A stretch of 64,000 nt of DNA from Limnomonas spitsbergensis (Eukaryota > Chlorophyta > Chlorophyceae > Chlamydomonadales), in contig JAYJMM010000009.1 of assembly GCA_037349105.1 (NCBI GenBank), positions 4,195,001-4,259,000 of the forward strand, given 5' to 3'. Position numbers and translations under genes: made by a program. Shown here piece by piece: positions 21,320-39,836 of this stretch; position 1 is the first letter of the stretch, and every line of letters begins with the position of its first letter. The notes under the pieces are model-generated. The model had not been told where the DNA came from. It saw nothing but the letters and a program-made list of their open reading frames with translations, and did no database searches.

Positions 21320-21323
21320 CTAT

Positions 21324-22194
21324 TGTCGCACCATAAAGCAGTAAACGGGCTAATATGGTAAACTCCGGAATCTCCGGTAAAGGCGCCTTAGAGAGGTGTC
21401 CTTCTACTCATAAACACGGTACATTACCGTACACACAGACTCCTTGTACTTCAGACAGGAGCTGTAACTGGCTACTGTAAGGTTCAGCCCTAGCAGGAAG
21501 TCTCTCTGCCTAGAGGTAAGGCCTGGGTGTCCCTGTCTTGAGGGTACCGCCCCCACTACTTTACTCGCGATGTGCGCTTCAGGTCCGTGGCGGACTTCTT
21601 TCCTCACGGCAGTGATGGACGCCTACGGGCAGGCTCAGTGACTCTTCACTGGCTGCGAGTGCTCAGCGAGTTAAGCAGCTAACTGGTTGTTTGTATGTAT
21701 AGCAATTGACTAAGGTAGCATAGGCCTTCTGGCCGTCTGGGCGCGATCCAGCTGGGCTATGTTAAGGGCACTTACCGCGCAACACGCGGTGAGGTAGACG
21801 GGACGTAGTCTGCGTACTTCTTCTTCGGCAGGGTCTCGGTTCTCTACTGGGGTACTTGTCTCCAGCTAGATCAGCTGATGCTGAGCTAGGCTTGACTCGG
21901 ATTAAGGTACTGACTTAAGTGAAAGCTGCTGGTCTCGAAGACGGCCGGTGCTTGTTACAAATAGAGGTCTGTCCTTTAGAAAGGGACGAAGTAACTAGCC
22001 TAGGCAATTGCCGGGATACAGGGACCCGGCAGGCCCAATTCAGAGTACGGTAGAACCTGTCAAATCATCTTGCGTAAGCGGGTTTCTAGGTCTCAGCTCA
22101 AACCCGGAGACTCCGCAGAGAAGCTGCGGAGGCTCCGTGGCCGCTAGTGGCGGCTCCAACGGTTCTGTCACGTATACGGTAATATACTGTGACA
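21324..22194 (-). repeat. Full 871-bp terminal repeat (A2-B2)
   Basis: TG...CA-bounded repeat. Bases 21324-21568 equal block B (copy at 22197-22441) and 21566-22194 equal block A (copy at 39204-39832); the blocks share CGC at 21566-21568. The end carries a near-palindrome (TGTCACGTATA ... TATACTGTGACA, 22165-22194). It also contains the 22-base site (21971-21992) complementary to the putative primer-binding site. Confidence 0.9.
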
Positions 22195-22196
22195 GC

Positions 22197-22441
22197 TGTC
22201 GCACCATAAAGCAGTAAACGGGCTAATATGGTAAACTCCGGAATCTCCGGTAAAGGCGCCTTAGAGAGGTGTCCTTCTACTCATAAACACGGTACATTAC
22301 CGTACACACAGACTCCTAGTACTTCAGACAGGAGCTGTAACTGGCTACTGTAAGGTTCAGCCCTACCAGGAAGTCTCTCTGCCTAGTGGTAAGGCCTGGG
22401 TGTCCCTGTCTTGAGGGTACCGCCCCCACTACTTTACTCGC
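22197..22441 (-). repeat. 245-bp partial repeat block B1
   Basis: Matches 21324-21568 base for base in length, with three substitutions. It is separated from the full repeat by the dinucleotide GC, making the perfect palindrome GACAGCTGTC at the joint. Internal element sequence begins immediately after 22441. Confidence 0.9.
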
Positions 22442-22453
22442 CCCCCGCTCCCC
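22441..22453 (-). promoter_or_regulatory. Putative polypurine tract
   Basis: On the coding strand, GGGGAGCGGGGGG lies directly against block B1. In LTR elements plus-strand DNA synthesis starts at such a tract at the 3' LTR boundary. Its place here implies that the replicative repeat would begin with block B, not at the TG of the integrated end. Inference from position and composition. Confidence 0.6.
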
Positions 22454-23131
22454 AGCGTTAAGCCCTCCGGGCATGCGCGGGGAGCCGGAAAAGGGGTGGT
22501 ACTGAAAGAACTTCTGGAAAATTATGTACGTAGAAGCTCAAATCGTCTCAGCAAATCTGCCTGGTTCAGGACTTCTTCAAACAGAACTAAAAAAAGAAAA
22601 AAATCCACCGAGTCTCAGCTGAAGCGCAACGCGCAGAATCCTACAAATTCAAGCTGTTCAGCCCACTACTGGCTAGCAAACAGAGAAATTTCAAAGTTAT
22701 CAGGCCAAGCTAAGAACAACCGCTGCTCTCGCCCCACTGCGCCATAGCCGCCTGGTCTTCAATGGCCACAGGAATTGTGCGCCGTAGCAGCGTGATCCGC
22801 CCCCTACTGTGCTACCATTGCCCTAGTTGACTAATTCTCCTCGCTCATCATCGTCATAACATATGTACTACCGTAGCCTTGCTGCTATGGTGTTTGGAGA
22901 AACCAAATTTTCACTATGCTGCTGCGATAGATTTAACTCCACTCCTGCATCTTCCGTCTTTGGTCCGCTGGCTGCCGGCCCACTGCCTGCCGGGTACTAG
23001 GACAAGCCACGCTGCGTCTGCATTCCTGCTCTGTAGGCGCCTGCCCGTTCCTTGCCAGTTACGGCGTGGGTGACGTCACGTGCTCAGCGGCCTTGCCGCT
23101 CTGGGCTCGGCCTCAGGTCTCGGTAAGCTCT
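22442..23131 (-). other. 3' untranslated part of the retroelement
   Basis: About 690 bp between the integrase stop and block B1. No long open frame on the coding strand and no recognisable domain. It includes the purine tract at its far end. Confidence 0.5.
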
Positions 23132-25147
23132 TCAAGGGCTGACTCCTCTTCCTCCCTTGCTGCTTCTTTGGCCACCTTGGCCCCTTCTTGTAACTGCTCT
23201 CGGGGTGACATTGGCCTCTCCCCGGCCAGTGGTGTACGAGATGTCGTACAATCCGTTCGCCATTGGTCTTGCGATGCCCCGCTCCATTTGCCTTGTTGCT
23301 GGGTTGGTGGCCATGACTTCCACCTCAGGCCTGTCCATGACGTTGGCCTCCTGGGCTGTCCTGGCAGCCGCTCTGGCTGCTGGGCTCGGCCTCCCCTGGA
23401 CCTGCAAACTGCGATCTTCTGCAGCGGGTCCTGCCCTTGCCGCGGGCTCAGCTCCCTTGTCCTTAGGCGCGCAAGTTGGGCACAACCACTGGCCCTCGGG
23501 CACCTCCTCGAGTACTGGTACCAAGCAATCCATGTGCCACCCTGTATTGCAGGCATCACACAAAAGCACCACCTCTCCGCGATCAGGCAGCTGGCACACC
23601 TCGCATGACAGGCTGTTATTGGGTCTGGTTCCACTGAAATCAACCACTCCCCTGAGGTTGGGCAAGTGGCATGGAGAACAATTGACAGCATTCTCTGTTA
23701 CTGTGAGGCCATCTGCCCCCTCCAACACCAAGGTTCCCGTCGCCCCCAGTGTTTTGACCCTGAGGATCTCAGGCCTGGCCTTGGGATCGAGGCTACGTCG
23801 CTCTGATGAATACTTCACATACACGTAATCTCCCTCTGCAAAACGCCTGACCTGGGGGACAAACCCTCCCCCACGAATGCGTGCATATCGCAGCTTGTCG
23901 CGGTGCTGCGCAATTTTTAGATGCTCACCCGCGATTGGCAGTGCCTCTTTGATCCTGGCCACTCTGGCCAAGAGCAGGTCTGCTGCCTCCTCTGCTGTTG
24001 CCACCTTGGCTGTGCTCCAGAGGTCCGCCCCCACTCTGGAGGGAAAGGTGGGTCTCTGCCCGAACAGCACCTCGTACGGCGCCATGCGCGTGGCCTGCTG
24101 CGGCGAGCACCGGAAGCCTAGGGCTACCCAGGGCACCATCTTGTCCCAGGACTCGTCGCTGCTGCCCTCCTCGCAGCACTTGCGCAGGCCTGCCTTGAGG
24201 GTCTGGACAGCCCTCTCTGATAGCCCGTCTGCCTGGGGGTGGTTGGCAGAAGTGGTGCGGTGGTCAATGAAGCAGTCCAACAACATGTCCTGAAATTCAC
24301 CCTGGAACTCTGTTCCCTGGTCTGTCACCACTTCTGCGCATCCCCCGAATCGTGCAACAACATTTTGAAAGAACGCTAAGGCCGTCACATCAGACGCCTT
24401 GCTTGGAATGGGGATCAACTCCACCCATTTGGAGTAATGCTCCACACAAACCATCACAAACCGATTGCCCCTGGAAGTGGTCGTAAATGGACCACACAGG
24501 TCCACTCCCCACCGGAAAAACAACCCCTCAATGGGTAGTGGGTGCAGGTTGGGCTGTATGTGATTGAATGTGGACGCCCTGGCCCTGTCACACACACCAC
24601 ATTCCTGCACTGCCTTCTTGACTGCTGCTCTGAGCCCCCGCCACCAATGCTGCTGCATGACCATGAAGGCCGTGCGGTGGCTGCCAAAATGGCCCGTACC
24701 GGCATGGGCTGTCTGGATCACTGCAAGCCTGTCCTCTGGCCTGGGCACCACACAACGTCTACCGTCAGGCATGAGTCTCATCAGCACTCCTCCCCTCTCT
24801 GATTCCCACTGGAATGGCGCAGCTCTGCGCTGTATTCTGGTCTGTTCTCCTAGCTCTGTTCCCTGAACAAATGTCTTCTCACGGAGAAACCTCAAAACAG
24901 GTTCATCTGCCCACACATCAACCCTGACCGATGGTCCTGCAGGGCATCCTAGCGGGTCCTTCTCACCCTCTGTGTCCCTGGTCACCACGATTTCAACATC
25001 AACTTGTTCCTCAGGCGTGTTCCCACCTGGTTCCTGTGCCGCGTCGGCCCAGTCTGCCGCAGCCGATTCTCCCAGGCACTGCCTGAGTGTATGACGCGGC
25101 CACTTCTCCGCTGCCAGAGCATGCGTTTCCTGCAGTAGCAAGGGCAT
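23132..25147 (-). CDS. DDE integrase with C-terminal PHD finger
   Basis: 671 codons from an ATG; the frame also overlaps the preceding ORF upstream. An HHCC zinc-binding domain is visible (H148, H153, C183, C186). The catalytic core has D216 (GVDLCGP), D276 (VVTDQGTEF) and E311 (ADGLSERAVQ), with exact D-35-E spacing. This is followed by a basic C-terminal domain (GDYVYVKY, about 439-500). Residues 515-559 form a C4HC3 PHD finger (C515, C518, C530, C533, H538, C541, C556, C559) with Trp554 before the last pair. Integrase inserts element cDNA into chromosomes. PHD fingers commonly bind histone H3 tails, so this one may steer integration to particular chromatin, in the position chromodomains occupy in chromoviruses. 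The tail after the finger is low-complexity and basic. Expression probably depends on a +1 shift from the methyltransferase frame. Confidence 0.9.
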   Translation of the reverse strand: MPLLLQETHALAAEKWPRHTLRQCLGESAAADWADAAQEPGGNTPEEQVDVEIVVTRDTEGEKDPLGCPAGPSVRVDVWADEPVLRFLREKTFVQGTELGEQTRIQRRAAPFQWESERGGVLMRLMPDGRRCVVPRPEDRLAVIQTAHAGTGHFGSHRTAFMVMQQHWWRGLRAAVKKAVQECGVCDRARASTFNHIQPNLHPLPIEGLFFRWGVDLCGPFTTTSRGNRFVMVCVEHYSKWVELIPIPSKASDVTALAFFQNVVARFGGCAEVVTDQGTEFQGEFQDMLLDCFIDHRTTSANHPQADGLSERAVQTLKAGLRKCCEEGSSDESWDKMVPWVALGFRCSPQQATRMAPYEVLFGQRPTFPSRVGADLWSTAKVATAEEAADLLLARVARIKEALPIAGEHLKIAQHRDKLRYARIRGGGFVPQVRRFAEGDYVYVKYSSERRSLDPKARPEILRVKTLGATGTLVLEGADGLTVTENAVNCSPCHLPNLRGVVDFSGTRPNNSLSCEVCQLPDRGEVVLLCDACNTGWHMDCLVPVLEEVPEGQWLCPTCAPKDKGAEPAARAGPAAEDRSLQVQGRPSPAARAAARTAQEANVMDRPEVEVMATNPATRQMERGIARPMANGLYDISYTTGRGEANVTPRAVTRRGQGGQRSSKGGRGVSP

Positions 25148-27329
25148 AGTGGCTGGACATCAAAGTTGCACCCAGCACTGGGTCCCTGTCCGGGCCTGGC
25201 AGCCTTGCCCTGCGTTTCAATTCCTCTGGTATGATTGTAGCACACTCAAGTGCCACATTGAGCCATGCACCCAGTGCCCACGAATCCATGCACCTGCCCA
25301 AGGCTGCCCTCCTGGCTGCCTCTGGGAAGTCTGGGCGCGGCAATGTGGACCCCACAGCGTACCCCATGGCTCGCTCACGCTCGTTTGCGTTGGGCTCCTG
25401 CAAGTCCCCCATGGGTCTGTACACCATCCCATTTTGCCCGTTTCGAAAAGAATATGATGAGGGCGTGGCCATCAAACATGGCAGCACCTTCCTGGGCTGG
25501 CCTGTTACGTTGATGCGGTACCCCCCATTGTCCGGACATGAGACTACCTGGGCCTTGTTGCCCTTGTCCAGAATGTCGTCTACTATCCCCTCGTGGGGTC
25601 TGGTCGACGCACGAATCACAAACTCAATATCTGCTGCAGGGGCGATATTCCCCCAATAGTTGCGGGTGCGGTGGGCGTAAGACCCCACCTGCGCTGCGTC
25701 AAACAACGCCGGTGTCCCCAGAATCCTGCACACCTCCTGAAAAGCCTCAACACTGGCCTTCACACTCTTCTGATTCAATTGCATGGCCACATTCTCAATC
25801 AGGTACGCTGGCGGCCTAGGCCCCTGCAGGAACTGTAGTGTACCCAACAGCTTGACTAGCGGGAAGAAAGACTTGCTTCTCTCTCCCGCGAGCCCACGCC
25901 CCTTGCCAGCTGACGAGAGGTCCTGGCACTCCCAGCCTGCTACCATGAACCACTGGCGCCCCCCCTGGGCACCCGCCTCCTTGAGGTGCTCCGCCGTAAT
26001 GGCATACACATCTTGGGGCAACGCTCTGAAAGCCTTATCAAACGCTTTGACCGGAAGCAACTGAGGGTATCTCCTGTGCAACTGCAACAGGCGACCCCCT
26101 GCGATCTCTCTGACTTCCTCACTGATATCAGCATACAAGTACTGCACCACTGGGATACCTGCCCTGAGCACCATTTCCAGCCCTGAGCACATACCTCCAA
26201 AGGGCTCGAAAATGACGACTCCCTCGGTCTCCATGGCCCGCACAGCCCCACTCGACAGGCAAGCTGTGTCCAGGCCTGCATGTAAATGAGGGGGCGTCAC
26301 CCGAGGCAGGTCAGCAAGAACATCACTGATCATTGTCCTGGCCCGCTCCTTGTTGCTGAATGCCTGTTCTGCCGTACTGACAGGCTGCGCCTGCTCATCA
26401 TCGTCAGTGGCGGCAGAGGATATCTCCTGCCCCACCTGCGCTGTCACGCAAGCTGCCTCTGCAGCTCGCAACATCTGTACTCTCCTTCTGCCCTCCTGCG
26501 CCATGCGCACTATCTGGTCTGCATGCCACTGGTTCACTCTGCCCAACCCCGTGAGCAAAGCTACTTGTTTCCCACCTGCCTCCTCCTGGACTGCTGGCTC
26601 GGGAGCGGCTGTGTCGAGCCTGGCCCCTGTGCGGTCAGCTGAGGATGGGAGTGGCGATCTGGACGGGATGTCCGCATTCTGGTGGCATGCCCCTGAGCGG
26701 TGGACAATGGTAATGTCCAGTTCTTGAAGCATGAGAGCCCACCTAGCATGCTGGCCCACCAACGTCTGATTGTCCATGAGGTAAGTGAGCGGCTCATGGT
26801 CAGTGATGAGATGCACCTTGCATCCAAACAGCATGTGGCGGTATGTGCGTGCTGCATACACTGCGGCCAGCATCTCCCCCTGGAACGAGGAATAGTTCCT
26901 CTCGCTCTTGTTCAGGGATCTGGACGTGCATGCCACCATATACTCCCGCCCGCTGTCGTCACACTGCCCTAGCACGGCGCCTATGCCTTGCTTAGAGAAA
27001 TCTGTGTACAACAGAAACGGCCTTGGCGGCCTCTTGCCGTCTGGCCCTGTCCCACTGTAATCTGGTCTGCGCAGGACTCTTCCGCCCTCGCACATCTCTG
27101 TTTTGATCAACTGGAACGCCTGCGACTGCTCTGGCCCCCACACAAACGGGACCCCCTTGACCAGTAATGCGTTGATGCATGCCGCCTTTTTCGAGAAATC
27201 CGGGACGTAGCACCGGTAGAAATTCAAGAATCCCATGACCTCCTGAATGTTTTTCACCGATGTGGGCTCTGGCAGCGCCATAACTGCTGCTATCTTGGCT
27301 GCGTGCGGCGTGAGCCCCTGGGCCGACAC
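25011..27329 (-). CDS. RT thumb/RNase H joined to a C5-cytosine methyltransferase
   Basis: 772 codons, open upstream of the first possible start, so it is read as a continuation of the RT frame. The N terminus (about 1-60) is the RT thumb. RNase H spans about 104-225 with D110 (LLYTD), E152, D177 (ITDHEP) and D220. From about 371 it is a C5-cytosine methyltransferase: motif I FEPFGGMCSG (374-383), motif II YLYADIS, motif IV GWECQDLS with candidate catalytic C468 (Glu replaces the usual Pro), motif VI ENV (512-514), motif VIII RTRN (554-557), and late motifs ERERAMGY and ALGRC. All key residues except the PC proline are present, so it may be active. No separate protein start is seen, so it is probably released from a polyprotein. 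Capture of such enzymes by algal and other eukaryotic retroelements has been reported; I cannot say whether this lineage is one of those. Confidence 0.88.
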   Translation of the reverse strand: MSAQGLTPHAAKIAAVMALPEPTSVKNIQEVMGFLNFYRCYVPDFSKKAACINALLVKGVPFVWGPEQSQAFQLIKTEMCEGGRVLRRPDYSGTGPDGKRPPRPFLLYTDFSKQGIGAVLGQCDDSGREYMVACTSRSLNKSERNYSSFQGEMLAAVYAARTYRHMLFGCKVHLITDHEPLTYLMDNQTLVGQHARWALMLQELDITIVHRSGACHQNADIPSRSPLPSSADRTGARLDTAAPEPAVQEEAGGKQVALLTGLGRVNQWHADQIVRMAQEGRRRVQMLRAAEAACVTAQVGQEISSAATDDDEQAQPVSTAEQAFSNKERARTMISDVLADLPRVTPPHLHAGLDTACLSSGAVRAMETEGVVIFEPFGGMCSGLEMVLRAGIPVVQYLYADISEEVREIAGGRLLQLHRRYPQLLPVKAFDKAFRALPQDVYAITAEHLKEAGAQGGRQWFMVAGWECQDLSSAGKGRGLAGERSKSFFPLVKLLGTLQFLQGPRPPAYLIENVAMQLNQKSVKASVEAFQEVCRILGTPALFDAAQVGSYAHRTRNYWGNIAPAADIEFVIRASTRPHEGIVDDILDKGNKAQVVSCPDNGGYRINVTGQPRKVLPCLMATPSSYSFRNGQNGMVYRPMGDLQEPNANERERAMGYAVGSTLPRPDFPEAARRAALGRCMDSWALGAWLNVALECATIIPEELKRRARLPGPDRDPVLGATLMSSHYALATAGNACSGSGEVAASYTQAVPGRIGCGRLGRRGTGTRWEHA

Positions 27330-27372
27330 ATTGTGACCCAGGTACTCTACTGTTGCACACCCAAACAGGGAC

Positions 27373-29331
27373 TTAGTTGTCGGGGTGCGCCCTTAATCCT
27401 ACACTGTGGAGCATGTCCAACATCAGCTCCACATGCCTGATGTGTTCTGCCGGTGTGTCACTGTACACTAGCAGATCGTCAATGTATGCCACGCAGAACG
27501 CACTCAGGCCTGCCCTGGCAATCTCCTCTTCCATCATACGCTGAAAGAAGGGAGGCCCATTGCGCAGACCGAAGTTGAGCTTTGTGTACATGCAAAGCTC
27601 AGGTCCCATCCAGAAAGCTGTCTTAGGCTGGTCCTCGACCTTTATAGGGATCTGCATGAACCCCGACCGGAGATCAACCTTGCTGAATATCTTGGCAGTG
27701 CCCAGGTTCTGAAAAATAGTCTCCATCCTGGGGATTACAAATTCCTGCTTAGCCGTACGCTGGTTTAACCTGCGCATATCGTGCGCTATCCGATGGTCTG
27801 TCCACTCCCCCGTCTCAGCACTCTTCTTGGCTGCTACTACTGAGTTGGCTGCAAACTTGATAGGCCCCCCCTGGGGCACCTTGACTACTATGATGCCTGC
27901 CTCAATCATCGGTTGACACTTTTCCTTAAAAATCGCCGCCTTAGGCGGTGGCATATCCCTGGACTTCTGAAAGCACGAACTGACCTCGTCTTCTAAAGCC
28001 AGCGTAAACTCACCCTGCGTGCCGCAGTAGCCTGGTAGATCCTCCATGGAGTAAGCGAATGCTCCTTGGCGATCCCGGAGGCTCTGCTCCAGGCTCTCCT
28101 GCTGCTCCGCAGTGAAGTCGGGGTGCTGGCCCAGCAGCCACCCCTCCTTGGTCTTGACGTACTCCGCGGGCGGCTCCACTACTCCCCCCGGCTGGAACAT
28201 GTCGATCATCTCAGCCGCCTGCGGGTCGTCCTCCGCGGGCGGCTCTTCCCTGCCAGTGGTGTTGCGGCTGTGCCAGCTCTCCTGCTGGCTGCAGGCACCC
28301 CTCCTGCTGGTACCCCCCATGGGGATGACTGCTGGCGGGCGCAACCATCCAGACGACAGCTTCGCTGCTGCCTCTTGTCCAGACACAAAAGCCCCTTGGC
28401 CTGCTGTAAATCCTCGTCCTCGTACCCCCTGCTCGGTGGCTCGCGCCCCCGGCACACACACCGACAGCAGGAGCCACACCAGTATCAGCTGGAGCGTCCC
28501 CGTAAGGATCCCCTTAAATGCTGTACAGGTGAGGAGTCCTCTGCAAGCTGGCATCTTCCTCGTGGGTTGCTGCGGTAGGTGCTCTGTGGGCTGTACGCAT
28601 GGCTCTGCACTCTGCGCTGGCCTCTGCTGCCCCCTGGCCCATGTGATCTCCAGGTCTACCTTGCTGATCCTGAGTGGCAGGACTGGGCAGTCCATTCCTG
28701 GCCTGCTGCCACGGTTCCTGTCCGCGGCTGCCCTCTGCGCCTTTCCTGCGCGTCGCCTAGCCTTCTTTGACTTTTTCCCCCGCAACTCGGCAGTGTCAGC
28801 CCAAGCCGCACCGGCCCTTTCTGGCCCTGCTCCTGGGATCTGTCCTGTGCTGCCTTGTGCCAGCCGCTCCTGCCTGTGAGTGGCGCGCTGCACCGTCTTG
28901 CTGCTGCCGGCACCCGCGGGCTCCTCTGGCCCACAGCCCTGTCGCATGGATTCCCGAGCGCTGGCAGCCCTCCTTGCAAGGTCCTCCCCCCTGCTGGTTC
29001 GGGCTTGGCTGCTGCGGCTGTCCGACGGCTGTTGGGTGTCCACTCCCTTTGCTCCCATCGTGTTGAGGGCTGATATTCTCTCCGTCAGCTCCTCCTGTAG
29101 CTCCCTGACCGCCCTGCTGTAACCTCCCATCCTGGGGTTTGGATCGGGCTGTGGCAGCATTCTGAGTCGGAAAAGCAGGCTAGCCTCCTGGCTCTTCCAT
29201 TCCATCTGCATCCCCAGCATCAGCTCTTGTGAGGCTGATCCTTGCTGGGAACGGGCTTCCGTCAGCACCCCACTCCTCTTCCGACTCTGAATCCTGCACC
29301 AGTGATGGTGGCCCTTCCGAAGGGTCTTCAT
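27373..29331 (-). CDS. Reverse transcriptase (palm) with basic N-terminal extension
   Basis: 652 codons with an ATG at 29331, overlapping the previous ORF. Residues 1-260 are basic, Gln/Ala-rich and unrecognised. A hydrophobic stretch (about 266-297, ending CVPGARA) looks like a membrane segment or signal. RT follows: DHRIAHDMRRLN, SKVDLRSGF with D553, and YIDDLLVY with D618/D619. The frame ends at HPDN-stop, and the thumb continues in the +1 frame from KSLFGC. The join is inside one folded domain, so either a +1 frameshift is used or one base was gained. Function: copying element RNA into cDNA. Confidence 0.88.
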   Translation of the reverse strand: MKTLRKGHHHWCRIQSRKRSGVLTEARSQQGSASQELMLGMQMEWKSQEASLLFRLRMLPQPDPNPRMGGYSRAVRELQEELTERISALNTMGAKGVDTQQPSDSRSSQARTSRGEDLARRAASARESMRQGCGPEEPAGAGSSKTVQRATHRQERLAQGSTGQIPGAGPERAGAAWADTAELRGKKSKKARRRAGKAQRAAADRNRGSRPGMDCPVLPLRISKVDLEITWARGQQRPAQSAEPCVQPTEHLPQQPTRKMPACRGLLTCTAFKGILTGTLQLILVWLLLSVCVPGARATEQGVRGRGFTAGQGAFVSGQEAAAKLSSGWLRPPAVIPMGGTSRRGACSQQESWHSRNTTGREEPPAEDDPQAAEMIDMFQPGGVVEPPAEYVKTKEGWLLGQHPDFTAEQQESLEQSLRDRQGAFAYSMEDLPGYCGTQGEFTLALEDEVSSCFQKSRDMPPPKAAIFKEKCQPMIEAGIIVVKVPQGGPIKFAANSVVAAKKSAETGEWTDHRIAHDMRRLNQRTAKQEFVIPRMETIFQNLGTAKIFSKVDLRSGFMQIPIKVEDQPKTAFWMGPELCMYTKLNFGLRNGPPFFQRMMEEEIARAGLSAFCVAYIDDLLVYSDTPAEHIRHVELMLDMLHSVGLRAHPDN

Positions 29332-32300: not shown

Positions 32301-33961
32301 TGTCGGAGTCTTCTGTTCCCTGAGCCGCTGGAGCCGTTGCTCCTAGCTTCCTGCTGACCCGCAGCCTGTTGTTGTTCTCCCTGCGGCTCCCCCTGGTCGG
32401 AATGCTCGCTCTCCGCGTTTGATAACGGGGACGGGGTCGCCATCATTTTCCTGAAGTACCCCGCCATCTCTGGGTCCACTTCAACTGGGAGCGGCTGCCC
32501 GTGGTTTGGCAACCCCCCCAAGTGCTGTGTTCCCAGGGCTTCCTGCAGCTTGGTCAGCTCATCTGCACGCAGGATGTACTGCTGATGGACCTCTGCCATG
32601 GCTTGCTGAGCATCCTGGATGCTCTTCCACCTGCCCAGCTGGCCTCCTAGGTACTCGACGATTCCTGCTGCCTGCTTCCACATCTGTTTTTCTCTCCACT
32701 TGAGAGCTTTTTTCAGCCCGTCAACTTGCCCGGTCAGCCTGCCGATGTGCCCGTCTCTACTGCTGGTCCCTGGCTCTGGGACCTTTTCGACGCTGCACTC
32801 CTGCTCCTCCTCTTCCATCTCTTCCTCCTGCGCCTTGCTAGCGCTGCCGCTTGCTGGTTGCGCAGTAGGCCTTGCTGCCCTTGGCTGCCCCTGCAGCTGC
32901 TGCTGTTGCGCCTGCCTGCCATCGCCGTCGCTGGCCTGTTGCACACTAGGCCCTGCCACCTGTGGTTGCCCTTGCAGCTGCTGCTGCTGCGCCTGCTCTC
33001 CCCTGCTGAGCACTGATTTTACTTGTGCAGCTCTGTCGGCTGCTGCTGTGCCATATCTCCTCTGCTTTGCGGCAGGCGACGCTGCCTGCACCGCAGGCGC
33101 TGTTTCTGGGATCCGCGAAAGGACCTGAATCCTCCTGTCGCACTCCTCTGCCGAGTGCCTGGCTGGCTTTCCGCACAAGGCGCACGGGTGGCTAGGGCAT
33201 GCTGGCATGAAGCCCCTGACAAACTCTCTCTCCTTGTCAGAGATTCCCGCGGCTCTGCGCGCTCTGGTCACCTCCTCTGAGGTTGCTGCGCCGGCCTCTG
33301 CCACTGCTGCCTCGATTGGCACCAGCCTTTGTCTTTGTAGCCTGGGGTTGACCGTGTTGCCCGGTCCTGCGTCCTGTCCAGCTCTCATAGCGGCACCTGC
33401 GCGCGTGGCCATGGCATGCTGTAAGAGCGGCTCGTGCTCTGTTTCAACTGTTGCAGCGGGCCACCCCTCTCTTTCTGCGAATCCACACTGGATTCCTGCC
33501 CATGCCACTGCTGCTGCCTGGTACCCCCCTGCTGGAGATGCCCGCATTAGTGGCAGCGTAAGGTCCCTGACCCCTTGCGCTCTCTGTGGGCCCTCTCTGG
33601 GTCGTAAGGTCAGTCTTCCTGCTGCCTCTAATACCCCGTTATACTTGAGGAACTCCGGGTTCCCTACCAAGTGCTCATATGCGTCTGGTGGCGTCTTAAC
33701 GACCCTGACCACCGTGGGCTCCATAATGGCATTGGGCCCCCCATATCCATACACCACATAAATGAACAGCACTCCATACAGATCTGCCCCTGCATTGTCT
33801 GTGGTACGTATCTTCTCATCTGTACGCACCAGCTCCGCCCCCATGGCAACTAATTGCTCTGCAATATTGACAGTGATGACATGGCACGTGCATGCTGAGT
33901 AACACCAGGACCTTCCCTTTGACCATAAGTCCCACACACTGCTCCAGGTTGCTTCTGTCAT
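29180..33961 (-). CDS. Protease remnant plus very long unidentified region with zinc knuckles
   Basis: 1593 codons. The first ~125 residues align by pattern with a retropepsin: CHVITVNIAEQL follows where the D-S/T-G triad should be, and LVGNPEFLKYNGVLEAAGRL resembles the C-terminal flap and ILG-like region. The catalytic triad itself is not visible in this or the overlapping frame. Next come an atypical CCHC cluster (C260, C263, H269, C274), Gln-rich repeats (QAQQQQLQGQP, about 325-360), an acidic run, a predicted coiled coil (about 408-478), an Arg/Ser-rich stretch (about 548-625) and a canonical CCHC knuckle (C671, C674, H679, C684). The last ~900 residues I do not recognise. Gypsy elements normally have little between protease and RT; this looks like a second Gag-like nucleic-acid-binding protein or acquired genes. 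Confidence 0.7.
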   Translation of the reverse strand: MTEATWSSVWDLWSKGRSWCYSACTCHVITVNIAEQLVAMGAELVRTDEKIRTTDNAGADLYGVLFIYVVYGYGGPNAIMEPTVVRVVKTPPDAYEHLVGNPEFLKYNGVLEAAGRLTLRPREGPQRAQGVRDLTLPLMRASPAGGYQAAAVAWAGIQCGFAEREGWPAATVETEHEPLLQHAMATRAGAAMRAGQDAGPGNTVNPRLQRQRLVPIEAAVAEAGAATSEEVTRARRAAGISDKEREFVRGFMPACPSHPCALCGKPARHSAEECDRRIQVLSRIPETAPAVQAASPAAKQRRYGTAAADRAAQVKSVLSRGEQAQQQQLQGQPQVAGPSVQQASDGDGRQAQQQQLQGQPRAARPTAQPASGSASKAQEEEMEEEEQECSVEKVPEPGTSSRDGHIGRLTGQVDGLKKALKWREKQMWKQAAGIVEYLGGQLGRWKSIQDAQQAMAEVHQQYILRADELTKLQEALGTQHLGGLPNHGQPLPVEVDPEMAGYFRKMMATPSPLSNAESEHSDQGEPQGEQQQAAGQQEARSNGSSGSGNRRLRQRSRSAQRAISEERRGTVPTPEARAQRQGKEQCNTSEGQGWDRRRQSPERDRRHQSPSREQPRGRSRERRPEEFARPYRQGPGHQRGPGLSPPGRAQAGGSGMAEPKRNLGPRHGGVCFKCGQPGHFANECTNPEQAVLTGDRPGAHAGPARGYGAKGPGRSQEVPEGNRRRDFETAMGTPREGGGQQAAAAFSQDKGTYQAEVSQAGPVQVAHQRVPEGQVASQVNHWTMAVEALAMNHYGTMPAGSARSVTHAMEFLKDLQRRGCPAPCEGWPGLLQRFLDREWDTYDEQWDEFERREREAVPQHSVDGWETDSGSILSAGRYEPREPSSLREAEFALLCPGTPEGNQDTGRGVAGAAAGTREPTSVVSRCPAARGAVAGSQLEALAGPVRTHKSTTSRCNAWGGVDEDGETQRSSERGGRSDARGEDSKLDQSFSRDRSYSRERVHVQPFPPSLPAGEPFVQYFRLGEEMPEASTSMAMLTMPAQSKDGPCRLQNHRLLGGGAQTCVNRAAAMQAVAMMIFPWGAVTAVLLGAALKGYIQPSTNMADYMQRGWSRHPIYAYCVSEMVGLAITAGITAVDAAGWAHPDMPDITRAEGMWQGAQPGFMRTPWAMDCVHQLMGHPALRDRAFYVPVQAMGEYERFEETAEQAPVGAGLCHPGRQRRCEATIEASIVIPRMVAGQAVPWGPAPGEARSAIPVQQLVTYYYEEVEDGEVPVSAAWVHMHATQDDKPVYLFARHQDNVAITKCESVDEAEFHAYTYARGADPTVWTLMLLALQRALLPGQLSVAMRHVWGVEEQWAPIAITACPTWPYGPQRTPASGAMWEGEEELARSPFAVEQLEACVLQWVRQERRAWHDNRASSVLPYWQADAITMQLWRQAHPAGVRTLHPLFRGAGEVGIEEELEALGNQPAFVTTLGAAASSWEWLEPMGDMEVSALEAETGDRAEPQTPPDSPSRPIAGDLDSGEPRPSTELRHRQEGRGLLGEENEDPSEGPPSLVQDSESEEEWGADGSPFPARISLTRADAGDADGMEEPGG

Positions 33962-35318
33962 TTTTGAAATACTGCAGCTGGGGTGCAGCTGTCATCGTTC
34001 TACCCTCTGGCCTGGTGTTACTGGTCTCACCCTTGTAGTCGTAGTTGTCTGCCTCCATTGGCATCGTGGTGAAAGACAGCGCTGAGAGCCTCTCGTTCAG
34101 CTTGAACACCTGTAAGCGGATGTCGGACATATCGTCAGCTAGTTTACTCAATACCAGCCTCTTTGCCCCCTTCCTGGAGGAAGGTTCCACGAATCCTGGC
34201 ACCGGTTCCTCCTCCTGAAAAGGTTCTGGCCTAAACGACTTAGGACGGGCGTTATGAACCGCCTGTTTGAAACCCGCAGGCTTGGGTGCCAGCCCAACCT
34301 GCGTCATGAGTGCCACGGACTCGCTGAGCATCTCTGCCATGGTCTGGTGCCAGCCTTCCGGCTCAGCCTGCACCGTTGCATTGCTGAGATGCGACACGTG
34401 GGCCGCCTGCTGCGCCTGACCCCCCTGGCCAGGCCCAGGCCTTGGATACTGCCTATTGTTCTGATTCCTTTCATACGGCCTGCATGCAGCCTGTCCCTGC
34501 TGCGGCCTTGGCGGTAGAGGGTACTGCTGTTGCTGCGGATACTGCTGTTGCGGCGGATACTGCTGTTGCGGCTGTCTGGCCGGTCCAGGTGTGATGTCTG
34601 TAACCAGGGGCATAGGCCTGCGCTCATCCCTGGCCCTGGGCGTCCTACAATCCCTGGCCAGGTGCGCCGTGCTACCACATTGGTAGCATGCCTTGGCTGC
34701 TCCCAAGGCGCCCTCTGCGCTGTAATTTGCCGTCCCTGTCTGGTCCGCCCAGGTAACTCCTCTGGGTTTACCATCCACCCGCAACTGTGGTACTGCTGCT
34801 GAGCCTGCGGGGTGCACTACTCCCTCAAGGCGTGTCCGCATCTCCCACTGTCCCGTTCTCTCTTTTCTGCCCCTGTTGGGCTGTGTATCTCCCTGGCCCG
34901 GCCCGCTGTTGGTTATTTGCCTGAAGCCGGTCCCTCCCAGGTCACCCATTTCCAGGGCAAACCTCTCCCACAGCACCACCTGCTGTGTGAGTACTGCGAT
35001 CTGGTCTTCATCGTTCATGCTGAGGTACCCGGGCACCGTCATGACGAACTTGCTCAGCTTGGCTCTAGCAACAGCTGGGAGTCCGTCGTGGAACATGCGC
35101 GAGACAGAGTGGCTTCTGCCGAAGTGATCTACTGCATCCCTTGAGATCTGCAGCAACTCTGCCGTTGTCAGCACTCTGTGAGCAAATGCTTCCACCGTCT
35201 CTTCTGGCTTGACGTCCGGATCTAGAGTAGTCTTTACTCCTAGCCTGAGGTTGGTGATGGCTGTCCTCTCCTCTGAAGTTGGTTTTCCCACTTCCGCCTG
35301 GACCACCCTGATCCACAA
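33816..35318 (-). CDS. Gag: capsid-like region and CCHC zinc knuckle
   Basis: 500 codons in the same frame as the upstream Gag ORF, from which one UAG separates it; no ATG is needed if read through. Residues about 10-125 resemble a gypsy-type capsid domain (ETVEAFAHRVL, MFHDGLPAVARAKL). Residues 211-224 form a CCHC knuckle (C211, C214, H219, C224) that would bind element RNA. Between them and after them are Pro/Gln-rich linkers. The C-terminal ~40 residues enter the protease (VGLMVKGKVLVLL) before the frame diverges, so a +1 shift near 33905 would continue into the next ORF. Confidence 0.78.
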   Translation of the reverse strand: MWIRVVQAEVGKPTSEERTAITNLRLGVKTTLDPDVKPEETVEAFAHRVLTTAELLQISRDAVDHFGRSHSVSRMFHDGLPAVARAKLSKFVMTVPGYLSMNDEDQIAVLTQQVVLWERFALEMGDLGGTGFRQITNSGPGQGDTQPNRGRKERTGQWEMRTRLEGVVHPAGSAAVPQLRVDGKPRGVTWADQTGTANYSAEGALGAAKACYQCGSTAHLARDCRTPRARDERRPMPLVTDITPGPARQPQQQYPPQQQYPQQQQYPLPPRPQQGQAACRPYERNQNNRQYPRPGPGQGGQAQQAAHVSHLSNATVQAEPEGWHQTMAEMLSESVALMTQVGLAPKPAGFKQAVHNARPKSFRPEPFQEEEPVPGFVEPSSRKGAKRLVLSKLADDMSDIRLQVFKLNERLSALSFTTMPMEADNYDYKGETSNTRPEGRTMTAAPQLQYFKNDRSNLEQCVGLMVKGKVLVLLSMHVPCHHCQYCRAISCHGGGAGAYR

Positions 35319-35342
35319 AGTGAGCAGCGAGGCCTCGCAACC

Positions 35343-37328
35343 CTACCCCTCTGCTGGGGCGATCCACTGCTGCCCGATCCGTTCCACTTCTCTGGCAATT
35401 CTGTTTCCTGCGTGGGGCGCTGCCCTGATGGCTGCCATCAGTGGCCCCATGCTGGCCGGCTTGCTGTCCCACAGCTTGACCAGCGACTTGATAAGCAACG
35501 TCATAGCTGACGGCGACTGGCATGATCCAGCTATTTCACCGGCCACCACAGCCAGCGCTGGCTGGTCATCCGACATTGCCAGCCTGTTGTGCGATCCCCA
35601 GTATCCACACGCCTGGCAATACTTCCTGGCTGCAACTGCGCCTGGGTGTGACATATCCAGGACTGGTACGTTGCCTTGGATGGCTGGGATCTTGGTGACC
35701 TTGGCTACCCCTGCCAGCTGAAGGACCATCTGCTGCTGCAGCTGCAGGTTCACCCTTGCCTGCTCCCTATCGAGCCTTTTCATTTCCTGGTCGCTGGACT
35801 CCTGCCTGGTTCTTGGCCTGCGCCTGTCCGCTCCCCTTGGATCTGAATTCGGTGATTCTGAGCGCGATCCATATCCACCTCCGCTGCCTCCTGACGGGCT
35901 GCGTCCTGGACGGTATCTATCAAATCTGTTGTCATTGTCCTCCTGATCATCCCTTGATGGCTGTCTGCCTGCTCTTCCTGCGGAGCTTCGACTCCCGTCG
36001 CGCGGCTGCCTCCCGGTCTCACTTCTGCTTGGTCTGTCGCTCGACCCGGGTCTCCAAGGATGTGCTCTGCCTGGTCCTGCCTGCTCCCTGGGCGGTTCCT
36101 GGCTTTGCCGATCCTGCTGTGCTCCCCTGCTGTATGCATTGGTTCCTCTGGGTTGCTCCTGGCTTTGCTGCCTTGGCTGTTCCCAGCTGTCTGCCTGCCC
36201 CCTGGGCGGCTCCTGGCCTTGCCGCTCCTGCTGTGCTCCCCTGCTGCATTCATCGGCTCCTCTGGGTTGCTCCTGACTTTGCTGCCTTGGCTGTTCCCAG
36301 CTGTCTGCCTGCCCCCTGGGCGGCTCCTGGCCTTGCCGCTCCTGCTGTGCTCCCCTGCTGCATTCATCGGCTCCTCTGGGTTGCTCCTGACTTTGCTGCC
36401 TTGGCTGTTCCCAGCTGTTTGCCTGCCCCCTGGGCGGCTCCTGGCCTTGCTGGTTCGGCTGTTCCCTGTTGTATCCCTGCTCTCTGGGTATTTCCTGGCT
36501 TTGCCAGTATTGCTGTCCTTCACTGCTTGCTTGCCCCCTGGGCTGCCCTCTGTACTGTCTTCCTGGCTGCGTTCCTCCTGTGTAATTCCTGGCGAAGGAA
36601 TCAGATTGCGTTTCCCCTCTGGCTTCCTGCCTTCTTGATCCGCTGCTGCGCACACTGCCTGCTGGCTCACCCTGTTGCGCTCCTCTTGCTGCTCCTTCTT
36701 GCCTGTTCCTCAGGAATTCCTCAATGTTATCCAACTGGGTTTCCTGGCATGTGTTCTCTTTGTCCTCGACGATGCGCAGGAGTGCATAGGATTCCTGCCT
36801 GGTTGCTCTGCGCGTTGCTACGCCTTGCTCAGCCATCCTGGCCAGTGATCGGCTAGTCAACTCCACTCTTTCGCTGGCGGCTGGGCTACTGGCCCTGGGT
36901 TCTTCCCTGCCCCTTGGCCGCCCCCTGAGGCTTGGCTCACTGCTGACCTCAAAAAACTCCGATCTGGGTGTCGGTGTTGGCGCGGACCTGGCCTGCTGCT
37001 GCCACCTCTGGACTTCCCTGAGATCTGCAGGTTGTTGCGCTGCTGTTTCGAATCCTTCCCACACCTGGTCCTCCTCATCATCTGGTTCGGAAGCGTGCTC
37101 CACTGGATGTCCTATCACCTCATCACACCACTCATCTGCGAAAGCCTTGACAGCTAGGGCTGCTTCACGTCCTACCCTTCCCTTGGACACCTGTCCAAGG
37201 GCGGCCAACAGCGCTGCTCTGTCCTGCCCTGTGTGGGACATACCCATCATGGCCTTTGTTGCCCATCCCTGCAGAGGGGGGGTTCTTGGGCCCCCAAGCA
37301 GTAAGGGGATGGGCCCTGAACTCCTCAA
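35343..37328 (-). CDS. Gag N-terminal region with 38-residue tandem repeats
   Basis: Up to 661 codons. It overlaps the previous ORF by 164 bp in the +1 frame, so it is probably a continuation. The middle is Gln/Glu/Pro/Arg-rich and contains a 38-residue repeat (GQEPPRGQADSWEQPRQQSQ core) about three times, followed by RS/RG-rich sequence. The C-terminal 150 residues (YCQACGYWGS, LIKSLVKLWDSKPASM) look folded and run into the in-frame TAG at 35343-35345, beyond which the same frame stays open for 500 codons. Confidence 0.6.
   Translation of the reverse strand: MRSSGPIPLLLGGPRTPPLQGWATKAMMGMSHTGQDRAALLAALGQVSKGRVGREAALAVKAFADEWCDEVIGHPVEHASEPDDEEDQVWEGFETAAQQPADLREVQRWQQQARSAPTPTPRSEFFEVSSEPSLRGRPRGREEPRASSPAASERVELTSRSLARMAEQGVATRRATRQESYALLRIVEDKENTCQETQLDNIEEFLRNRQEGAARGAQQGEPAGSVRSSGSRRQEARGETQSDSFARNYTGGTQPGRQYRGQPRGQASSEGQQYWQSQEIPREQGYNREQPNQQGQEPPRGQANSWEQPRQQSQEQPRGADECSRGAQQERQGQEPPRGQADSWEQPRQQSQEQPRGADECSRGAQQERQGQEPPRGQADSWEQPRQQSQEQPRGTNAYSRGAQQDRQSQEPPREQAGPGRAHPWRPGSSDRPSRSETGRQPRDGSRSSAGRAGRQPSRDDQEDNDNRFDRYRPGRSPSGGSGGGYGSRSESPNSDPRGADRRRPRTRQESSDQEMKRLDREQARVNLQLQQQMVLQLAGVAKVTKIPAIQGNVPVLDMSHPGAVAARKYCQACGYWGSHNRLAMSDDQPALAVVAGEIAGSCQSPSAMTLLIKSLVKLWDSKPASMGPLMAAIRAAPHAGNRIAREVERIGQQWIAPAEG
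36077..36420 (-). repeat. 114-bp coding minisatellite in gag
   Basis: Three near-identical 114-bp units (boundaries near 36191, 36305 and 36419) encode 38-residue repeats in frame. The copy nearest 36077 is more diverged. Equal multiples of three preserve the reading frame. Confidence 0.8.
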
Positions 37329-38229
37329 TGGCTGCTATTTGATCCTGGAGTTGCGAGAACGTCCTGGTGCATATTTCTTTCCACAGGTTTGTTGCCCACT
37401 GCAAAAGTCCTGCCCAGCCGAGCGGCTGCATTTGCTTCTCTGGCTCTTTTTCGACGCTGACTTCTTCCACTGCCCTGGAGCGCTCTGGCTCTCTAGGTCT
37501 GGCATCCTGCGCCTGCGCTGGTCTTGGAAAAAATCCATGCCGGAATCCCTCGTCGCTGCCGCCTTGCATCTGGTTGCTAGATCCCTCCTTGGGTGTCTGC
37601 ACAGGTCTGCCCACACTGGGCGCAAACTTGGACAGCGGTGTCCCGTAGACTGTGGATCCCACCCCTCTTTTAACCAGCACCTTGCGTGGTCGCATTGGCT
37701 GTCTTTGGCGCAGTCCTGTCACTGGCTGCCGTTCCTTCTCTTCTTTTATCGGCTGAGGCAGCTCCTCCTCAGATATTAGGTCAGCCCACGGCTTTCCCAC
37801 TGGTACAGCTGACTTTTCCTGTGGTTTCCTGCTGCTCCGCGGGACCTGCCTGGTTCCCGCCGTTTGGATCTCAGCTTCCATGCGTGTGACTTCTGCAAGT
37901 ATACTCTCAATTTCCATGTCCTCTGCTTCCATTCGCTGTTTGTCTGGGCAGGTTTTATCCTTGCCTGCAACCCCGCCTGGGGCTGCGGCTACTTTGGCCC
38001 TTAGATCCGGTTGGCTGGGCTCTTTTTTAACCCGTTGTGCAACACTTGCCACCCTGGGCAGGCTCTGCTGCGGCGCGGCCTCCGGTTCACCTCTCTGTCG
38101 CGTGTCACAGCTCTGGGACGCTTCCGTTACTTGATCCAAGATCAGTTCTGGAGTTCCCGCTTGAGTCTGCCACTGCTCGAAATTCAGACTGCTGTCTGAA
38201 CCAGCGGGCAATGGACCCCCCCCGACCAA
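37165..38229 (-). CDS. Gag-region ORF, function unknown
   Basis: 354 codons without an early ATG; open upstream in the +1 frame of the first ORF, so probably translated by frameshift. Charged, low-complexity, with basic segments (RQRQPMRPRKVLVKRG), an acidic/Glu-rich region with regular Met/Leu spacing (MEIESILAEVTRMEAEI) that may form a coiled coil, and WAGLLQWATNLWKEI, an amphipathic helix. I recognise no family; its place fits a matrix-like part of Gag. Confidence 0.5.
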   Translation of the reverse strand: MVGGGPLPAGSDSSLNFEQWQTQAGTPELILDQVTEASQSCDTRQRGEPEAAPQQSLPRVASVAQRVKKEPSQPDLRAKVAAAPGGVAGKDKTCPDKQRMEAEDMEIESILAEVTRMEAEIQTAGTRQVPRSSRKPQEKSAVPVGKPWADLISEEELPQPIKEEKERQPVTGLRQRQPMRPRKVLVKRGVGSTVYGTPLSKFAPSVGRPVQTPKEGSSNQMQGGSDEGFRHGFFPRPAQAQDARPREPERSRAVEEVSVEKEPEKQMQPLGWAGLLQWATNLWKEICTRTFSQLQDQIAAIEEFRAHPLTAWGPKNPPSAGMGNKGHDGYVPHRAGQSSAVGRPWTGVQGKGRT

Positions 38230-38485
38230 TGCCTTTGCGCGTTACGAGCACTGCACCATCTGCCTGCGCCCCTGCCTCTCTGGGCGGTACGCGGCCCGGC
38301 TCAGGCACCTCTGCAAATGGTTCCGCTGGCCCTGCCAGCTTCTCCGCCATTAACAGGGCTTCTGCAGCCATCTCATCACTAGCTTCCATCAGGTTTACAC
38401 CCGGCTCCAGCCCCCTCAGACGCCCACTTCTCCTTTGGGCGTCAGGGTGCTGGTGCCTATCGGGATTTAGATCTACGTCTGTCAT
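38105..38485 (-). CDS. First ORF of the retroelement (Gag start)
   Basis: The first ATG in this frame is at 38485 (MTDVDLNPDR), giving 126 codons to TGA at 38105-38107. Acidic N terminus, Ala/Glu-rich centre. It is the most 5' ORF with a good ATG, about 700 bp after the putative primer-binding site, so I take it as the translation start of the element. Overlaps the next ORF by about 125 bp, which lies in the +1 frame. Confidence 0.5.
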   Translation of the reverse strand: MTDVDLNPDRHQHPDAQRRSGRLRGLEPGVNLMEASDEMAAEALLMAEKLAGPAEPFAEVPEPGRVPPREAGAQADGAVLVTRKGIGRGGSIARWFRQQSEFRAVADSSGNSRTDLGSSNGSVPEL

Positions 38486-38497
38486 ATCTACAGGCAA

Positions 38498-39180
38498 TTA
38501 ACGAACCGCACGGTCCTGCAAGCGTGCTGGCGACACCCTCTACAAGATCTGCTAACGCTAGGCTTCTGCTCCCTTGTTCCTACTGCAATCTGGTGAGGGC
38601 TTGCAAGTCAAGATCGGATGGCAGGTGCAGCACTATGCAGGTTAGGCCTCGCCCTCCTGCTTTTCTGCTCACTAGTTTTAATCTGGCGGAATCCTCCTTC
38701 GCCCTTTCAGTTCTTCCCACCTTGCTGGTCGGGCTGCTTCTAGATGTCTCGCGTCCCGCGTGAATGTCACACGCCCTGCGTGGATGTTGCCTCTTGCGTA
38801 GTGTCCGCTCAGCTCTGCGTTCCTGCGGGGATCCTTTGGCACACCCACAAGATTTCAAACTTGGATGTTCTATCCACAAGTTCACTTCTGTCAATGATGA
38901 AAGATTGGATCCACCTGATCACAATCTGCAGTCACACAGGAAATTATCTGCTGGGTGTATAAATCCACAGCCAGATCTTCAAGCCACTCCTGGACTCAAC
39001 ACTAAGCTGCCACGCTCAGTGATTCTCAGGGTTTAACTTGGCAACCTCTCTATGGAGATTACCACAGCAAAGTGCAGTTCAAATGCTGTCCAAGGTCGTT
39101 TGCATGCAAACAAATTTCCAATTTCGCTGCACAAGCACCTTTAGCAGGAATTGGCAAATTAAGCTGATCAGGCTAAATCC
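38498..39180 (-). other. Retroelement 5' leader
   Basis: About 680 bp between the putative primer-binding site and the first supported ATG. A 104-codon minus-strand frame (38580-38894) has no recognisable domain; the leader may carry packaging or translation signals. Confidence 0.45.
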
Positions 39181-39202
39181 ACTTCGTCCCTTTCTAAAGG
39201 AC
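39181..39202 (-). promoter_or_regulatory. Putative self-primed primer-binding site
   Basis: One base downstream of block A1 on the coding strand lie 22 bases that are a perfect inverted repeat of 39609-39630 inside A1. An RNA starting near 39630 would have a 5' end able to fold back and prime reverse transcription here, as in Tf1-type self-priming elements. There is no TGG start as expected for tRNA 3'-end priming. Confidence 0.62.
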
Positions 39203-39203
39203 A

Positions 39204-39832
39204 CGCGATGTGCGCTTCAGGTCCGTGGCGGACTTCTTTCCTCACGGCAGTGATGGACGCCTACGGGCAGGCTCAGTGACTCTTCACTGGCTGCGAGTGC
39301 TCAGCGAGTTAAGCAGCTAACTGGTTGTTTGTATGTATAGCAATTGACTAAGGTAGCATAGGCCTTCTGGCCGTCTGGGCGCGATCCAGCTGGGCTATGT
39401 TAAGGGCACTTACCGCGCAACACGCGGTGAGGTAAACGGGACGTAGTCTGCGTACTTCTTCTTCGGCAGGGTCTCGGTTCTCTACTGGGGTACTTGTCTC
39501 CAGCTAGATCAGCTGATGCTGAGCTAGGCTTGACTCGGATTAAGGTACTGACTTAAGTGAAAGCTGCTGGTCTCGAAGACGGCCGGTGCTTGTTACAAAT
39601 AGAGGTCTGTCCTTTAGAAAGGGACGAAGTAACTAGCCTAGGCAATTGCCGGAATACAGGGACCCGGCAGGCCCAATTCAGAGTACGGTAGAACCTGTCA
39701 AATCATCCTGCGTAAGCGGGTTTCTAGGTCTCAGCTCAAACCCGGAGACTCCGCAGAGAAGCTGCGGAGGCTCCGTGGCCGCTAGTGGCGGCTCCAACGG
39801 TTCTGTCACGTATACGGTAATATACTGTGACA
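39204..39832 (-). repeat. 629-bp partial repeat block A1
   Basis: Matches 21566-22194 exactly in length with three substitutions. Its outer end GTGACA abuts the CTAT duplication. The inner boundary shares CGC with block B1. It contains the self-priming complement at 39609-39630. Promoter activity is likely here but no TATA-like signal is evident. Confidence 0.9.
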
Positions 39833-39836
39833 CTAT

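Follow-up and report, generated by a model that had tools for sequence, protein, structure and literature searches.

A circularly permuted retroelement with a DDE integrase

The stretch analysed here (the window) comprises 64,000 nucleotides of the 260-Mb assembly of Limnomonas spitsbergensis (C9:4195001-4259000), and it holds an 18.5-kb retroelement, with an interior of 16.8 kb, which in its integrated form has the layout of an ordinary Ty3/gypsy-type long terminal repeat (LTR) element, circularly permuted. Very probably this form arises by self-primed reverse transcription, joining of the LTR ends into a two-LTR circle, and then opening by the integrase of a palindrome that lies inside the LTR. 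With somewhat less confidence, we consider it likely that at least three Ty3-like families (a clade) have dropped the LTR ends as integrase substrates, with a palindrome in U3 as the attachment site and the joined-end circle as an obligatory intermediate.

On the plus strand of the window the blocks are ordered A1-B1-GC-A2-genes-B2. The coding strand is the minus strand, and there, with blocks marked by a prime, the order is B2'-primer-binding site (PBS)-genes-polypurine tract-A2'-GC-B1'-A1'; gag comes first and is followed by pol, which comprises reverse transcriptase (RT), RNase H, a DNMT-like segment, DDE integrase and a PHD finger. An earlier note on this stretch had reported split direct repeats bounded by TG..CA, flanked by CTAT and arranged in the order of PAT-type elements, and these proved to be real. 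A1 and A2 differ at 3 of 245 positions and B1 and B2 at 3 of 629, the element starts with TGTCGCACC and ends with ACTGTGACA directly inside CTAT on both sides, and the coding-strand order B2'-genes-A2'-GC-B1'-A1' is, apart from the labels, that of PAT. Also confirmed, at the borders in the window, were the purine tract (GGAGCGGGGGGCG on the coding strand) and the primer-site candidate that the note had placed next to the repeat blocks. The features of the element, including its target site duplication (TSD) and open reading frames (ORFs), are as follows.

21320-21323: TSD CTAT, 4 bp, left
21324-21568: A1, on the coding strand an extra U3a piece after the 3' LTR; starts with TGTCGCACC
21565-21566: LTR/LTR joint, TTTACT joined to CGCG, of the exact type; other copies vary
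21566-22194: B1, on the coding strand the putative U3b-R-U5 of the 3' LTR; ends with ACTGTGACA
22191-22200: palindrome GACA-GC-TGTC, proposed integrase site inside the LTR; GC spacer between B1 and A2 at 22195-22196
22197-22441: A2, on the coding strand the U3a that adjoins the purine tract
22439-22451, minus strand: polypurine tract GGAGCGGGGGGCG, candidate plus-strand primer, adjoining AGTAAA; border as suggested by the joints
23132-25147, minus strand: ORF with Integrase_H2C2, DDE integrase core (rve) and PHD finger
25011-27329, minus strand: ORF with Ty3-type RNase H and a DNMT3-like cytosine methyltransferase segment
27373-29331, minus strand: ORF with reverse transcriptase (RVT_1, YIDD)
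29180-33961, minus strand: long ORF with a CCHC zinc knuckle, probably gag and more
33816-38229, minus strand: further sense-strand ORFs of 500, 661 and 354 aa, without Pfam match
39181-39203, minus strand: PBS candidate TGTCCTTTAGAAAGGGACGAAGT, beginning at the LTR end and complementary to a B' segment
39204-39832: B2, on the coding strand the 5' partial LTR (U3b-R-U5)
39608-39630, minus strand: self-primer candidate ACTTCGTCCCTTTCTAAAGGACA in B2'; identical in B1 at 21970-21992
39833-39836: TSD CTAT, 4 bp, right

The integrase and the coding region

The claim of the earlier note that the element encodes a DDE integrase holds. The integrase ORF of the window matches rve (E 4.5e-10) alongside the zinc-binding H2C2 domain and the PHD finger, its catalytic residues are D216, D276 and E311 with 34 residues between the last two, and its best solved relatives are Ty3 Gag-Pol and the integrase of prototype foamy virus (PFV). 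The succession of RT-RNase H and then an integrase of Ty3/retroviral type is that of Ty3/gypsy elements. No Pfam match to a tyrosine recombinase was found in the seven ORFs of the window or in the two ORF pieces of copy C97b. The PHD finger is common to the window integrase and to Volvox and Haematococcus proteins, and occurs also in a protein labelled Chrzof1, which we take to be from Chromochloris. The coding region of the window copy is broken into several ORFs; among the best matches listed for a Volvox integrase, which include copies of the window family, there are single open frames of up to 5,291 aa in the same genome.

Three side observations concern the coding content. The DNMT3-like cytosine methyltransferase segment between RNase H and integrase has ECQ where the usual motif is PCQ. 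In one copy (L076/L077, C97:1416950-1431350) the RT-RNase H segment is missing, a deficit of about 1.7 kb against the window; its reading frame is nevertheless still open (listed at 4,738 aa), its TSD is TTTA and its joint is of the +T type, so that it probably moved in trans. Lastly, two integrase relatives, P0007 (48% identity) and P0059 (39%), are filed under Spirochaetia and Burkholderiaceae bins, which is probably eukaryotic contamination.

Other copies and their target site duplications

Three queries, namely the LTR and the inner right and inner left ends of the element, served to find further copies, and the best 40 of 2192, 908 and 1000 candidates, respectively, were scored, so that the sample consists of the closest copies within one assembled genome. 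The A1-B1-GC-A2 layout is present at dozens of other loci. Both ends were obtained for 19 copies besides the window, and 18 of these (19 of 20 with the window) have a matching 4-bp duplication directly outside A1 (or A) and B2, as the earlier note had expected of further insertions in the same order; in C36 the duplication still matches across ends that lie 31 kb apart. Because the duplications match in 19 of the 20 copies, the outer ends of A1 (or A) and B2 are the ends that the integrase joined to the host. The sole copy without a matching duplication, C86, has B-GC-A but lacks A1 apart from its final six bases, which precede B.

The 20 copies differ in how many B-GC-A units separate A1 from the genes: the number is one in 14, none in two (C80 and C41c, both with the duplication), two in two, four in one and undefined in one, and the three copies with more than one unit also have the duplication. 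A count without bias towards A1 was obtained by classifying the 40 inner-left-end matches. A1 with at least one B-GC-A is seen in 27 (24 with one, two with two, one with four), and A stands directly at the host junction in seven, with five distinct flanks. Three matches on C112 have B-GC-A, and in two of them B follows the inner right end of another element; one match (C27:1259363) has an A without its first 34 bases, and one is C86. The earlier note had named ordinary full-length LTRs at both ends as the counter-case. Among the 38 of these 40 left ends that were seen in context, none has an ordinary full LTR beside host DNA with a matching duplication, C86 coming nearest in its irregular way. 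There are also solo remnants without genes, two of the form A-B (L065, L067) and one A-B-GC-A-B (L068), and all three have a 4-bp duplication.

The A and B repeats behave as LTRs. Within copies the mean divergence is 0.4% for A1/A2 and 0.3% for B1/B2 (16 of the 20 copies, the set leaving out C86, the two copies without a B-GC-A unit, and C106, in which B2 is interrupted), while between copies it is 5.3% for A and 4.6% for B, the smallest values being 0.9% and 0. The nearest sequence to B2 is the B1 of the same copy in 13 of the 16, and in the other three the B1 of a close relative differs by 0 or 2 changes.

Extra LTR units occur in L018, L014 and L041 (four, two and two units), with joints identical within each copy (both +T in C93, all exact in C22 and C124). 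Since the repeated joints within a copy are identical, duplication after insertion is the more likely origin of these units, and circles with more than two LTRs are disfavoured.

At two further places larger arrangements were seen. On C112 (L074, 1860000-1902000) two elements with a full LTR between their internal regions face apart from a short common centre, possibly reflecting integration of a circle into an element, or autointegration. On C41 (3970000-4021000) matches recur at a spacing of 19,649 bp, with B truncated in two of the three units. The tandem arrays on C41 and C34 were dropped as evidence, as they are larger repeated segments with truncated ends or equal flanks.

The two joints

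Two kinds of joint can be read in these copies, and they differ in their constancy. The B-GC-A joint was sought by a pattern that allowed one to six spacer bases between GTGACA and TGTC (or TGTT), and the spacer is exactly GC in 43 of 43; a 44th match to the pattern is the host flank of L065. The LTR/LTR joint between A1 and B1 is exact (..ACT joined to CGCG) at 36 of 50 loci, a few of them with nearby single substitutions, this set leaving out L021 and L044, which are inner right ends. The other 14 loci have extra bases, namely A in six, CA in two, ACA in two, T in three and CG in one; on the coding strand these are +T, +TG, +TGT, +A and +CG, respectively. The coding-strand T, TG and TGT repeat the start of the adjoining PBS (TGTCC) to a length of one, two or three bases. 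In three of these ten copies (L015, L017, L025) the PBS itself was read and starts with TGT; for the other seven it is taken from the remaining copies, where 20 of 22 inner right ends have it. Two of the three loci with an extra T, L052 and L053, have the same six bases before A1 and are close in sequence.

Joint variant and ancestry are not clearly related. Only 0.3% separates L016 (+T) from L022 (exact) and 0.8% separates L118 (+TGT) from L012 (exact), and the joint type is the same as in the nearest relative for two of 13 non-exact insertions (L113 and L115, both +T); with shuffled labels a mean of 0.79 shared types is expected, and 25% of shuffles reach at least two. If the RNA begins and terminates within B', as in LTR elements, the LTR/LTR joint would be absent from it and would have to be remade in every cycle. 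Bases copied from an incompletely removed primer would then explain the T, TG and TGT extras, which lend indirect support to the cleavage of the RNA and its use as primer.

Other families in the genome

The earlier note had read the replicated repeat as B-GC-A and the integrated form as a two-LTR circle opened at one joint. This reading gains support from the variation of the joint by primer-site bases, and also from other families in the genome that share the architecture and whose PBS differs between families while matching the element's own B' within each. Nine stretches downstream of integrase matches were sampled, and six of them (L078, L079, L081, L082, L083, L106) contain A' twice in direct orientation, the repeated part being 50-246 nt long and the spacing 850-887. 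L082 and L083 resemble the window LTR (82% and 85%). L078 and L079 resemble it at 69-70% over about 750 bases and were assigned to family 2, as was L106 by its joint sequence; open frames in family 2 reach 5,514 aa. L081 and L080, which are 77% alike over 925 bases, make up family 3, and blastn gave no match between them and the window LTR. In L080 an LTR with GACAGCTGTC adjoins its own PBS, beyond which lies an inverted LTR piece. The 4-bp duplications are present in 7 of 8 pairs of family 2 and 2 of 2 of family 3; when two-ended and solo copies of the three families are taken together, 31 of 33 have one. In L105 a run of nine G precedes the palindrome by about 85 nt, and the integrase matches lie 8.3 kb apart.

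The arrangement in L080 resembles a one-LTR-circle joint with autointegration. L104, in which the palindrome is absent, has a TGTAACA start beside a purine-rich stretch, and may be an ordinary gypsy element (a guess by eye, from the one end seen). The window itself also holds a 21-bp tandem repeat array at 52356-52612, outside the element.

Complementarity of the PBS to the element itself

In all three families the PBS and the purine tract adjoin the borders of the replicated LTR, not the integrated ends. In family 1 the LTR end is directly followed by 23 bases, TGTCCTTTAGAAAGGGACGAAGT, that can pair with a B' segment (ACTTCGTCCCTTTCTAAAGGACA) at position 202. Family 2 has a different PBS, which pairs with its own B' over 16 nt at position 211, and the PBS of family 3 pairs with its own B' over 13 nt at position 106. 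The match begins at the first PBS base in each family, where the LTR end of family 2 was placed at ..ATCGCG by analogy with family 1; counted from ..ATC, the match begins at the fourth base. Matches of the PBS of one family to the B' of another do not exceed 9 nt, and when the first 30 PBS bases were shuffled 500 times, no match was longer than 10, 12 and 11 nt for families 1, 2 and 3. Across 40 family 1 B1 sequences the mean minor-base frequency is 0.009 in the self-primer segment of B' and 0.038 in B, with 91 of 607 windows of B more conserved than the segment. If this B' segment is part of the 5' RNA, the PBS would pair with the RNA of the element itself. A tRNA primer was rejected, as the PBS begins with TGT rather than TGG and pairs with the element itself; no tRNA search was made.

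A proposed route of integration

In the mechanism that we propose, the replicated LTR is A'-GC-B' (U3a-GC-U3b-R-U5). The RNA would begin in B' and be primed by the B' segment paired with the PBS that adjoins it, and reverse transcription would yield a linear cDNA, LTR-genes-LTR, that starts with AGTAAA.. and finishes with ..ATCGCG. Its two ends would be joined, mostly exactly and sometimes with one to three primer bases kept, to give the LTR/LTR joint of a two-LTR circle. The DDE integrase would ignore the cDNA ends and cut GACA^GC^TGTC inside the LTR with a two-base stagger, producing both CA-OH ends with two-base 5' overhangs at once, and integration would then make the 4-bp duplication. Opening one of the two palindromes would leave B'-genes-A'-GC-B' joined to A'. 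End joining would have to come first because a linear A'-GC-B'-genes-A'-GC-B' could not otherwise yield this product. A one-LTR circle would give the form without an extra unit, as could later recombination between A1 and A2.

There are retroviral precedents for the proposed cut. PFV integrase is described in PMC1180852 as cutting the palindrome at the LTR-LTR junction on both strands to leave 5' AT overhangs, and HIV-1 integrase, according to PMC1905944, also cuts its own LTR junction, with mostly four-base overhangs. The two-LTR circle was argued in the 1980s to be the retroviral integration precursor and was decided against, in the account of PMC11054761, on the grounds that linear DNA is active and that overhangs are of two, not four, bases. 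The overhang objection is removed here because the spacer of the palindrome is two bases.

Several points weigh against the proposed route. The evidence is the sequence of one assembled genome, from which circle, cDNA and RNA are all deduced, and known retroviruses, as PMC11054761 relates, integrate linear DNA and not the two-LTR circle. For the +TG and +TGT joints the PBS prefix is that of other copies, the three +A joints and the one +CG joint are not PBS prefixes, and the 13-nt PBS match of family 3 barely exceeds its shuffled maximum of 11. C86 and a family 2 copy, C9, are without TSD. The copies without an extra unit (7 of 40) may be insertions of one-LTR circles or products of later recombination between A1 and A2, and the copies with two or four units point, by their identical joints, to duplication and not to multi-LTR circles. 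Finally, the same product would result if two palindromes of a linear concatemer were opened.

Weighing the alternatives

It is this last substrate, an end-joined linear concatemer or else a directly permuted linear DNA, with the integrase still using the internal palindromes, that is the likeliest alternative, although we think it unlikely. Besides giving an identical product, it could draw on the full LTR between two internal regions at places on C112 and on the 8.3-kb spacing of integrase matches of another family on C120, which suggests tandem units. A concatemer would, however, need two cuts where a monomer circle needs one, and primer-base remnants at the joint fit the joining of finished cDNA ends rather than a template switch. 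Insertion by a tyrosine recombinase, as for PAT, Ngaro and DIRS-type elements, would account for the repeat order, which PAT and Ngaro share (PMC8969392, PMC4157794). Yet the 4-bp TSDs in 31 of 33 copies set the present elements apart from DIRS elements, which PMC8969392 describes as having none, and the ORFs searched hold a Ty3/PFV-like DDE integrase and no recombinase match; on TSDs and domain content together we ruled this origin out, leaving it a very slight chance.

The remaining alternatives would make the layout secondary. The 16.8-kb interior could be a nested insertion into an earlier 871-bp tandem repeat, as the earlier note had allowed, and the two solo A-B remnants and the one A-B-GC-A-B remnant count in its favour. 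A nested insertion cannot, however, produce one layout over and over at loci whose flanks differ and which have 4-bp TSDs of their own (18 of 19 other copies). A1/A2 and B1/B2 are, moreover, almost the same inside a copy and on average much more diverged from copy to copy, and a purine tract and PBS stand at the inner borders in three families, so that we regard such an origin as barely conceivable. Ordinary LTR insertions turned into the permuted form by later unequal recombination are highly improbable too. The extra LTR units in copies with two or four do look like later duplications, and C86 has B-GC-A without A1 on its left side, but in 19 of 20 copies the TSDs that flank the outer ends, A1 (or A) and B2, match each other, and no ordinary precursor with a matching TSD was seen among the 38 left ends in context. 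Both of these explanations were ruled out by the many differently flanked loci with TSDs at the same ends.

Relation to known elements and significance

The elements resemble Ty3/gypsy elements (Metaviridae), including the chlorophyte elements with a PHD-integrase, in their RT, Ty3-type RNase H, H2C2 and DDE integrase and PHD finger, and also in their TG..CA ends with a 4-bp TSD (19 of 20 copies) and their purine tract. They are unlike them in that the integrated ends lie inside the LTR, with B' alone at the 5' end and A'-GC-B'-A' at the 3' end, in place of identical full-length LTRs. With PAT, Ngaro and VIPER they share the repeat order A1-internal-B1-A2-B2, but those elements, with their split repeats, all have tyrosine recombinases as PMC4157794 and PMC6681497 present them. 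The DDE integrase, the 4-bp TSD and the inner borders with purine tract and self-complementary PBS separate the present elements from that group. The geometry of CA, 2 bp and TG is that of PFV, where one staggered cut would give both ends with two-base 5' overhangs (PMC1180852). The palindrome of PFV arises by the joining of LTR ends, whereas here it is fixed inside each LTR, away from the joint.

The self-primer complement of Tf1 is 11 nt long. Tf1/Tj1 are reported to have a PBS that can pair with part of their own 5' RNA (PMC4600332). The complement here is up to 23 nt and lies 106-211 nt into B', and integration is permuted. Bacterial elements of the IS3/IS30 type form circles or joined-end intermediates in which a DDE recombinase acts on abutted ends with a short spacer; unlike these, the intermediate here would be a reverse-transcribed cDNA, with the spacer encoded in the LTR. 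TOC1/TOC2 and REM1 of Chlamydomonas are chlorophyte retroelements that are reported to be unusual in how their repeats or genes are arranged. PMC4157794 places the Toc elements with the PAT type, and PMC2774666 describes REM1 as having a truncated, reversed integrase. We file the present elements within Ty3/gypsy, because they have TSDs and, in the ORFs searched, no match to a tyrosine recombinase, unlike the PAT/DIRS/Ngaro group, and agree with Ty3 except for full LTRs at the ends; they behave as LTR elements that are opened at a different point. No element combining split repeats with a DDE integrase was found by title or opening of the abstract in the open-licence literature, outside which most subscription papers lie.

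Most insertions of these elements keep the LTR/LTR joint, so that the genome sequence shows base by base how the ends were joined, and the permuted layout is hard to produce unless the LTR ends join first. Software that looks for a full LTR on each side of an element would probably annotate these insertions wrongly. If the proposed route is true, the split-direct-repeat layout would not be diagnostic of tyrosine recombinases but would follow from where a circle opens, and a route long proposed and rejected for retroviruses would be one that a retroviral-type DDE integrase uses.

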